Below, piece after piece: positions 1,076-2,860 of a DNA stretch of 21,465 nucleotides. Under the pieces are notes generated by a model. The model was not told where the DNA came from. It searched no databases and was given only the letters and a program-made list of their open reading frames with translations. A program made the translations under genes and the position numbers. The DNA comes from a virus: positions 1 through 21,465 of IMG/VR virus record IMGVR_UViG_3300030450_001579; one strand, given 5' to 3'. Every line of letters begins with the position of its first letter. Position 1 is the stretch's first letter.

Positions 1076-1744
1076 ATGGCAGACGAAGTAATCAAGCCTG
1101 ACAATTCAGCGGAAATAGCTGCATTAAAGGCAGAAGTTGAAAGACTAAGAAAATCTAATAGTGAAATATTAGATGATTACAAGAAAGCTAAGGAGGCGGC
1201 AAAAGCAGTTCCTCAAGATGTAGATGTAAATGCTTTGATCGCTTTCAAGCAGAAAAAAGAACAGGAAGAGCTTGAGGCTAAAGGCAGATATGAAGAGGCT
1301 ACAGAAAAACTAGCAGCCCAGTATAGACAAGCAGAAGAGCAGCAAAAGCAAAGGATACAGGAGCTAGAAAATAGACAAAGACAATTAGAAGTTGAAGCTC
1401 CAGCAGTAACAGCACTTGCTGACGTTGTACACGACCCTCAATATGTATTGAGTCGTATAAGCAAGGAACAGCTTGCCAGAGAAACAGACGGCACAGTTGT
1501 AGTTGTTGATGGTTATAACAGAACACCAGTCAAAGAATGGGCAATGTCCAAGATGCCTCAATGGGTACAAAAGAATCCAAGACCTCAGGGCGGTGGAGCT
1601 ACTACAACAAAGGTACAGACTGAGTTTGTTTCTAATGATAAAAACCCATTTGCACCTGATTCATTCAACCTTACAGAGCAAGCTAGATTATATAGGACAG
1701 ATATTAATAAATACAATATGCTCAAAAACGCAGTTACAGGTTAG
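1076..1744 (+). CDS. Capsid scaffolding protein
   Basis: A 222-residue protein directly upstream of the major capsid gene, the usual place for a scaffold. Residues about 10-110 are highly charged and rich in Glu, Lys and Gln (EIAALKAEVERLRKSN and following), predicting a long coiled coil. The middle (about 110-165) is more globular, with PQYVLSRISKEQLA. The end has NPFAPDSFNLTEQARLY and a Lys-containing helix, as in other phage scaffolds whose C-terminus binds the capsid protein. I see no Ser-His-Asp protease signature, so it is probably a pure scaffold removed by exit or by a protease elsewhere. There is no Shine-Dalgarno site; the start follows a T-rich leader (TTTATTTATG). Confidence 0.85.
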   Translation: MADEVIKPDNSAEIAALKAEVERLRKSNSEILDDYKKAKEAAKAVPQDVDVNALIAFKQKKEQEELEAKGRYEEATEKLAAQYRQAEEQQKQRIQELENRQRQLEVEAPAVTALADVVHDPQYVLSRISKEQLARETDGTVVVVDGYNRTPVKEWAMSKMPQWVQKNPRPQGGGATTTKVQTEFVSNDKNPFAPDSFNLTEQARLYRTDINKYNMLKNAVTG

Positions 1745-1754
1745 TATATAGACA

Positions 1755-1793
1755 ACGTGGTTGTGCCATGTCAGAGGTTGTGCCTCGAACTGA
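1755..1793 (+). promoter_or_regulatory. Twin stem-loops in the capsid gene leader
   Basis: The 78-base gap between scaffold and capsid gene holds two neighbouring hairpins with the same five-base loop TTGTG. The first pairs ACGTGG (1755-1760) with CCATGT (1766-1771), including one G-U pair. The second pairs GAGG (1774-1777) with CCTC (1783-1786), and can be extended by TCA/TGA around a GAAC bulge. The shared core GGTTGTGCC recurs 17 bases apart (1759-1767 and 1776-1784). No T-run follows at once, so neither is a classic terminator. An RNA processing, stability or regulatory element for the highly expressed capsid message is possible. Confidence 0.5.
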
Positions 1794-1822
1794 ACATATC
1801 TTTTACTTTTTAATTAAATCCA

Positions 1823-2860
1823 ATGGCTACATTGAGGTCGGATTTGATCATACCAGAAGTGTTCACCCCCTACTTAATTGAGGCTACTACTCAGACAGAT
1901 AGCTTTTTACAAAGTGGGGTTGTACAACCTTTGGCTGAATTAAATCTTTCAGCAGAAAGAGGTGGCGACTTTGTAAAAATCCCATCATATTCTGCAAACT
2001 TATCAGGTGATTTTGAGGTTTTAACAGACTCAACATCATTAACTCCAGCAAAGATAACAACAGGCGATCAGATTGCAGCCGTACTCCACAGAGGACGTGC
2101 GTTCAGTGCGAGAGATTTAGCTAGTCTTGCTGTTGGAAGCAGTGTTGATCCTATGGCTGCTATTGCTCAGAAAATGGCTGCATACGTCAACAACCAAAAA
2201 CAGAAAGATCTATATTCTTGTCTGACTGGTGCTTTTGGTTCTATAAATGCAAACGATAGTAATTCTGCATTATTTAGTTTGACTATTGACTCTGAATCAT
2301 CAGACACACCAACAGCATTAAGTCCTAGACACGTTGCAAAGGCTCAGTCATTACTTGGCGATCAAGGCGGCAAGCTTACAACGATTGCAATGCACAGCCG
2401 TTGCTACTATGACTTGGTAGAAAGAAGAGCAGTTGATTTTGTTCTTGCTACTGACATCAATGGTGGCGGTGCTACAGCGTCAGGTGGTTCTATCCAGAAC
2501 GCATTTGGAAATCCACAAGTCCCTACATTCATGGGGCTGCGGATAATAGTTTCGGACGACATTCCAACAACAGGCTCTGGATCTACAACGGAATACAGTG
2601 TTTTCATGTTCCAAAACGGAGCAGTCGTTACAGGCGAACAGGCTCCAATAAGAACACAGACAGATAGAGACATTCTTGCTCTTGAGGAAGCAATGGCAGT
2701 GGATCTACACTACATCTATCACCCTGTAGGTCTTAAGTATGCTGTTTCAACAGTTAACCCATCTAGATCAGTTCTAGAGACAGTAGGTTCATGGTCGAGA
2801 ACTTATGAATTGAAAAATATCGGTATTGTAAGAGCTACCGTTGTTTCTAATAACGACTAG
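1823..2860 (+). CDS. Major capsid protein, HK97-fold
   Basis: A 345-residue protein that matches by eye the coat proteins of many siphoviruses and podoviruses. It opens SDLIIPEVFTPYLIEATT, followed by SGVVQPLAELN, then GGDFVKIPSYSANLSGDFEV (spine-helix and E-loop region) and ITTGDQIAAVLHRGRAFSAR. Later come DPMAAIAQKMAAYVNNQKQK (long helix) and SPRHVAKAQSLLGDQGGKL in the P domain. The end is rich in beta structure. It forms the icosahedral shell. Position directly after the scaffold, with decoration and connector genes behind it, fits. There is no strong Shine-Dalgarno site, although this should be one of the most expressed genes. The leader with paired stem-loops may compensate. Confidence 0.93.
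   Translation: MATLRSDLIIPEVFTPYLIEATTQTDSFLQSGVVQPLAELNLSAERGGDFVKIPSYSANLSGDFEVLTDSTSLTPAKITTGDQIAAVLHRGRAFSARDLASLAVGSSVDPMAAIAQKMAAYVNNQKQKDLYSCLTGAFGSINANDSNSALFSLTIDSESSDTPTALSPRHVAKAQSLLGDQGGKLTTIAMHSRCYYDLVERRAVDFVLATDINGGGATASGGSIQNAFGNPQVPTFMGLRIIVSDDIPTTGSGSTTEYSVFMFQNGAVVTGEQAPIRTQTDRDILALEEAMAVDLHYIYHPVGLKYAVSTVNPSRSVLETVGSWSRTYELKNIGIVRATVVSNND

Follow-up and report, generated by a model that had tools for sequence, protein, structure and literature searches.

The balance of scaffold and shell protein in tailed phages is an old question, and the locus analysed here poses it in a particular form: what are the two small tandem hairpins lying between its scaffold and capsid genes, and what reads them? 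The window, i.e., the whole stretch of 21,465 nucleotides (nt) that was analysed, is part of a 22 kb record and covers a cyanosiphovirus head-tail gene cluster. As far as we know, an RNA site recognised by a scaffold protein has yet to be defined, and a search of the literature available without subscription found no description of such an element.

Hairpins in the gap between the scaffold and capsid genes

The scaffold ORF is separated from the major head protein ORF by a gap of 78 bases (1745-1822) (Table 1). The scaffold ORF matched the profile of PHROG 206 (head scaffolding protein) at E=1e-27 over residues 12-218 of 222, and its homologues in S-H1 and KBS-S-2A also matched PHROG 206. The preliminary description had assigned the element to the leader of the capsid gene, which agrees with the match of the downstream ORF to PHROG 247, the major head protein. 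The capsid protein of the window is 84% identical to those of MED4-117 and MED4-184/P-HS2, 67% to that of KBS-S-2A, and 65% to that of S-H1.

Table 1. Features of the scaffold-capsid region, in coordinates of the window.
Feature	Position	Strand	Basis
ORF of the scaffold protein (222 aa), the putative RNA-binding partner	1076..1744	+	PHROG 206 match; co-variation with loops
Scaffold codons 11-44, N-terminal helix co-varying with loop type	1106..1207	+	co-variation; predicted separate helix
Codon of scaffold Arg25 (basic with U-ending loops, acidic with C-ending loops)	1148..1150	+	co-variation
Codon of scaffold Asp33 (D with UGU, K with CGU loops, Arg25 type)	1172..1174	+	co-variation
Hairpin 1, ACGTGGT-TGT-GCCATGT, UGU triloop at 1762-1764	1755..1771	+	fold; compensatory changes in relatives
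CA linker separating the two hairpins; longer in some relatives	1772..1773	+	sequence
Hairpin 2, GAGGT-TGT-GCCTC, UGU triloop at 1779-1781	1774..1786	+	compensatory changes, e.g., GTGG/CCAC in L258
Single-stranded motif 3' of hairpin 2, CTGAAC in the window	1790..1795	+	comparison with relatives
Major capsid protein ORF, presumed controlled gene	1823..2860	+	PHROG 247, E=1e-77; sole gene found downstream of the element

The core GGTTGTGCC was found twice, at 1759-1767 and 1776-1784, exactly as described before (17 bases apart), and no third copy is present in the window, even when one mismatch is allowed. Both copies are indeed flanked by pairing bases; hairpin 1, previously counted as six pairs closing a five-base loop, has seven pairs, two of them G-U, when the closing U-G pair is included. 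The reported lack of a terminator T-run also held, as hairpin 2 is followed by GAACTGAACAT and terminator calling gave nothing at 1755-1800; an intrinsic terminator was therefore rejected.

Taken as a single sequence, the tandem hairpins are not exceptional, and chance is not excluded by folding energy or by shuffling. The folding z-score of the element is -0.1, which is like shuffled sequence, and tandem hairpins of equal strength with the same loop arise by chance at 0.27 per shuffled window, against one place in the real one. The significance of the pair comes from its conservation in related leaders and from the covariation of its stems, not from the folding of one sequence.

Conservation, covariation and genomic context of the element

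For the comparative analysis, 275 capsid loci were drawn from public viral contigs and cultured phages. The hairpin pair was present in 275/275 of the capsid leaders examined (74 distinct hairpin-region sequences), and thus in every closely related leader examined; MED4-117, MED4-184/P-HS2, KBS-S-2A, and S-H1 are among its carriers. In many AT-rich leaders the hairpins were overlooked or put in the wrong register by a blind parser, so the positions of the loops were set by motif.

The sequences of the stems are wholly different among classes. Hairpin 1 is built of ACGTGG/CCATGT, ACGTGG/CTACGT, ACGTAG/CTGCGT, CTAG/CTAG, CAAC/GGTTG, or CTTG/TAAG, and hairpin 2 of GAGG/CCTC, GTGG/CCAC, GGG/CCC, or GGTG/CACC. 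Pairing is kept in 100% of cells in the class of the window (8 sequences, 3 two-sided pairs), in 100% in the tetraloop class (13 sequences, 5 two-sided pairs), and in 91% in a distant clade (13 sequences, 8 two-sided pairs), and the respective covariation scores were reached in 3/500, 0/500, and 0/500 shuffles. When the partner was slid by one base as a control, the covariation signal was lost or strongly reduced. RNAalifold independently predicted both hairpins.

The core stems contain more than 50 G-U cells, which are not independent events, and 0 A-C cells, which is what would be expected if the plus-strand transcript folds. The comparison as a whole demonstrates a conserved RNA structure of the sense strand. 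Selection for RNA structure, proposed earlier from the window, is thereby upheld by hairpins in all related leaders examined, including the distant clade, and by abundant compensatory changes, the very check that had been suggested. In Rfam release 15, no family was found at the gathering threshold for the window and nine loci of other classes, and a permissive search of 1400-2100 gave one match, on the opposite strand and attributable to chance.

The link of the element to the capsid gene proved exclusive in the genomes scanned. In each of four cultured phages, a scan of the whole genome gave a single copy, before the capsid gene. In the collection, the AG-type pattern lay before this capsid gene at 113/113 evaluable places and the Synechococcus-type pattern at 106 places, i.e., in every evaluable case. 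The few remaining pattern matches are chance ones in GC-rich coding DNA, and there are also a few matches to GGTTGTGCC without hairpins. The element was absent from S-2L and from those phages of Firmicutes, Pasteurella, and Bradyrhizobium with SPP1-like capsids that were checked. The annotated capsid protein of S-2L (L406 1393-1500) has 36 codons ahead of the part that its homologues match; the start may have been annotated in the wrong place, or the protein may be an extended one.

In the AG-345-A17 group of marine phages, which is the distant clade, capsid identity is down to about 32%, yet the leaders contain two hairpins. These carry C-NGU-G triloops (e.g., GTCCC-CGT-GGGAC and CAAGTC-CGT-GACTTG), whose first base is free to vary and which all end in GU, and they are followed by CCGCAAAC at the place of the Synechococcus-type CCGTAAAC. 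The clade (L326-L405, L408-L487) is large and without cultured members, and has a different scaffold N-terminus. A single-stranded motif a few bases 3' of hairpin 2 is thus common even to this clade; at the position corresponding to 1790-1795 it reads GTRAAC in most Prochlorococcus- and Synechococcus-type relatives and CGCAAAC in the distant clade, and it may belong to the element.

Correspondence between the loops and the scaffold N-terminal helix

The observation that like loops sit on different stems extends to the relatives, where the sameness of the loops is itself conserved: loops vary among phages, nearly always in both hairpins. In the Synechococcus type both hairpins carry identical triloops (UGC, UGU, UAC, or CGU). 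In the Prochlorococcus type both loops are UGU or are tetraloops (UUGC, UUGU, or GUGC), and only two classes, both of this type, have unequal loops (CGGC/UUGC and GUGC/UUGC). Such concerted loops on unrelated stems suggest that a single ligand reads both hairpins. Kissing between the two loops was rejected, because UUGU and UGU are not self-complementary.

Since neighbouring genes recombine freely, the association between loops and genes could be tested. In Prochlorococcus-type loci, the scaffold N-terminus, the scaffold core, the capsid gene, and the downstream genes recombine independently, and their gene-by-gene identities to the window differ. Differentiation between loop classes, measured as the proportional excess of between-class over within-class difference in 66 distinct Prochlorococcus-type loci, was 0.66 in the leader and 0.53 and 0.43 in scaffold codons ~3-60, against 0.08-0.23 in the remainder of the scaffold gene, situated between these codons and the leader, and mostly 0.02-0.25 in the capsid gene, its first codons excepted. 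In the scaffold alignment, residues ~12-45 sort exactly by loop class and those after DVDV do not. On trees of 106 representatives, nine loop classes require 8 changes (the minimum) for the N-terminal segment, 19 for the rest of the scaffold, and 22 for the capsid. The best loop-predicting columns are scaffold residues 15-41, with residues 20 and 25 perfect, compared with 0.887 for the best capsid column. No association with loop class was found for four other neighbouring genes.

The loops thus co-vary with a scaffold helix that is encoded 500-700 bp upstream of the leader. The predicted scaffold structure (mean pLDDT 79, pTM 0.38) has a separate helix at residues 11-44, followed by a long helix at 51-115. 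As this helix tracks the loops more closely than the immediate neighbours of the leader do, physical linkage was rejected as the cause and matched function is favoured. The capsid protein was likewise rejected as the loop reader, given that capsids 95% identical accompany different loop classes and that its tree needs so many changes. We strongly infer from these comparisons that the scaffold protein is the partner of the hairpins.

The correspondence can be followed to single residues. Residue 25 (window numbering) is X in the scaffold motif [LM]-X-[RKA]-[KNS]-[NK]. Where both loops end in C it is Glu or Asp (131/131 distinct scaffolds), and where both end in U it is Arg or Lys (78/78), so that the rule holds in 209/209 distinct scaffolds. 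X is followed by ANN in 31/31 tetraloop scaffolds and in 0/178 triloop ones. Of the independent contrasts on supported branches of the capsid tree, 10 of 10 fit the rule for X (p=0.002) and 9 of 9 the link of ANN to tetraloops (p=0.004); the tree of the rest of the scaffold offers only 3 contrasts on supported branches, all of which agree.

The rule for residue 25 had been spotted by inspection before testing, and a further scan, aimed at Synechococcus-type loops ending in GU, was therefore made with the prediction written down first. Arg was found at residue 25 in 16 of 18 distinct new scaffolds. The exceptions are L768, with CGU loops, Glu25, and a UAC-like helix (LEKKNFELIGKL), and L678, with UGU loops and Asn25 (TNRKN). 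In the new data, residue 33 of the Arg25 type is Lys with CGU and Asp with UGU. The scaffold helix of the AG-345 clade, where all loops end in GU, is unalignable, and the residue-25 rule could be checked in L425 and L515 only, both of which fit; these two members combine UGU loops with a Prochlorococcus-like helix (LKAQN).

Arg25 codons of the AGR and CGN kinds occur with the same loops, which places the association at the level of the amino acid; pairing of the loops with scaffold coding RNA was ruled out on this ground. Residues 20 and 25 covary, and their spacing is that of two positions facing each other in a parallel coiled coil; the effect of residue 25 may therefore be indirect, via coiled-coil pairing instead of contact with the base. 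Unusually for an RNA-binding peptide, the scaffold helix is not strongly basic.

Proposed mechanism and its alternatives

Two features of an autogenous leader are found here, i.e., a conserved structured RNA in the untranslated region next to a gene and a protein of the same operon that co-varies with it. On this comparative evidence, we consider it probable that the element is a cis-acting intercistronic RNA bound by the phage's own scaffold protein through its N-terminal helix, most likely promoting capsid translation or protecting the mRNA. The two tandem hairpins, whose loops of 3 or 4 bases are alike, lie in the scaffold-capsid intercistronic region, and the coiled-coil helix (residues ~11-44) would read the loop. 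Scaffold proteins of this kind are helical and probably form dimers, and each of the two helices of a dimer could take one hairpin. Residue 25 would contact or determine the last loop base (an acid for C, Arg or Lys for U) and residue 33 would affect the first. Binding would then promote translation of the capsid gene, or protect its mRNA, for as long as free scaffold is available, and shell protein would be made when scaffold is present to guide assembly. Physical binding, the match of a dimer to two hairpins, and the capsid as the regulated gene are steps that we infer.

The regulatory effect is not obvious, as the hairpins leave the ribosome site uncovered. The distance from the end of hairpin 2 to the capsid start codon is 25-37 nt in all three clades, and simple ribosome blocking is not favoured, because hairpin 2 ends just upstream of the standard initiation footprint. 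In tailed phages, capsid protein made without scaffold tends to misassemble, and a scaffold-dependent output of capsid protein would therefore be useful; for this reason we lean, slightly and as a guess, to activation rather than repression. The element might also serve to repress, to have assembly take place locally at the mRNA, or to control the scaffold gene.

The proposal has partial counterparts among known systems. The coat protein of MS2/R17 reads an operator hairpin in the phage mRNA and so links assembly to translation. In both cases a structural protein of a virus reads, or is proposed to read, a small mRNA hairpin loop, but the present one concerns a dsDNA tailed phage, a scaffold rather than a coat protein, an unrelated helical protein, and two hairpins, and whereas the MS2/R17 operator hairpin lies over the start region, the hairpins here lie upstream of it. 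In P22, free scaffold autoregulates the scaffold gene after transcription, and we know of no RNA site defined for this control; post-transcriptional control of assembly-protein synthesis by free scaffold is the shared (here proposed) element, and the difference is a site located between scaffold and capsid as a mapped RNA structure. The N protein of lambda reads the boxB hairpin loop with a short N-terminal arginine-rich helix in antitermination. As proposed for the scaffold, an N-terminal helix reads a hairpin loop there and the matched peptide-loop pairs differ by phage type, although the scaffold helix is not arginine-rich and the hairpins are in tandem copies.

T4 gp32 and its RB69 counterpart exemplify autogenous repression, in which a phage protein recognises its own mRNA and the targets diverge among relatives (PMC535899). 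The scaffold proposal shares both features, but gp32 acts in replication, where it binds single-stranded DNA, and is no assembly scaffold; the targets are unrelated. The pan RNA motif likewise consists of simple hairpins in tandem, for which a dimeric protein ligand was suggested, but it belongs to cellular pantothenate genes, has conserved bulged A residues, and shows no sequence relation to the phage element (PMC2864571).

Several other readings were weighed. It is rather unlikely that the same scaffold-RNA contact tethers scaffold to the capsid mRNA for local assembly, or controls scaffold expression, without adjusting capsid translation, even though all of the co-variation evidence fits this equally well and the element adjoins the capsid start at a conserved distance.

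A protein-independent mRNA boundary, in which the paired hairpins mark the limits of the scaffold and capsid mRNAs or make them more stable (as a 5' stabiliser or processing site) and so give unequal protein amounts, is improbable. It would suit hairpins lying between two genes that need different output, and the sequence TA[AG]NNT at the scaffold stop of Prochlorococcus and Synechococcus types could be a -10 element with the 5' end at hairpin 1; it leaves unexplained, however, the concerted loop changes and the tracking of the scaffold helix, and the distant clade lacks the -10-like sequence. A promoter at the scaffold stop was accordingly rejected as an explanation covering every clade. Across 97 distinct leaders of the two types the T of TA[AG]NNT never varies (background 19-29%), and TA[AG]NNT is possibly a -10 element that starts transcripts at hairpin 1. 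The scaffold stop codon overlaps it (1742-1747 in the window) in nearly all of the 97, and S-H1 and L087 keep TAAGAT though it is out of frame with their stop. KBS-S-2A (L315) is annotated with an RpoD-like sigma factor (HQ634187.1 7779-8708), so the late promoters of the group may differ from the host consensus.

We regard it as quite improbable that the loops are read by some other factor, of phage or host, and that the scaffold N-terminus co-varies for some other reason, e.g., co-inheritance with an unseen third gene. The comparison covered flanking genes only, which leaves room for such a factor, but none of the four other neighbouring genes was associated with the loops, and the residue-to-base correspondence extends across two clades and new data. 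One candidate, a phage tRNA-guanine transglycosylase recognising UGU loops, was dropped because UAC loops lack the G. A queuine tRNA-ribosyltransferase is annotated near the terminase in MED4-184 (NC_020847.1 17129-17914) and MED4-117 (NC_020857.1 12347-13132).

Finally, inverted repeats might also form a DNA-level element (operator palindromes or a recombination site), and HK022 put, which lies downstream of early promoters and acts on RNA polymerase to suppress pausing and termination, is likewise a phage RNA of two adjacent stem-loops (PMC9378689), but both readings are very improbable, as the stems differ in sequence yet stay paired, with G-U and no A-C (which ruled out a DNA palindrome or operator), and as the element measures about 32 nt against about 70 nt for put, lies in the head-gene region, and tracks the scaffold helix.

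If the preferred reading is right, i.e., scaffold binding to the hairpins before the capsid gene, its scope may be wide. We see an even chance that in a large group of dsDNA cyanophages the scaffolds act as regulators that bind RNA sequence-specifically by an evolving code, one that can be read from residue to base (with residue 25 answering to the final base of the loop, residue 33 to its first base, and ANN to tetraloops), and that tandem hairpins on the scaffold's own mRNA couple capsid synthesis to scaffold supply. The group, abundant in the ocean, would then offer a compact natural set of matched RNA-protein pairs, in which specificity is predicted from one or two residues and from which new orthogonal peptide-hairpin pairs would follow.
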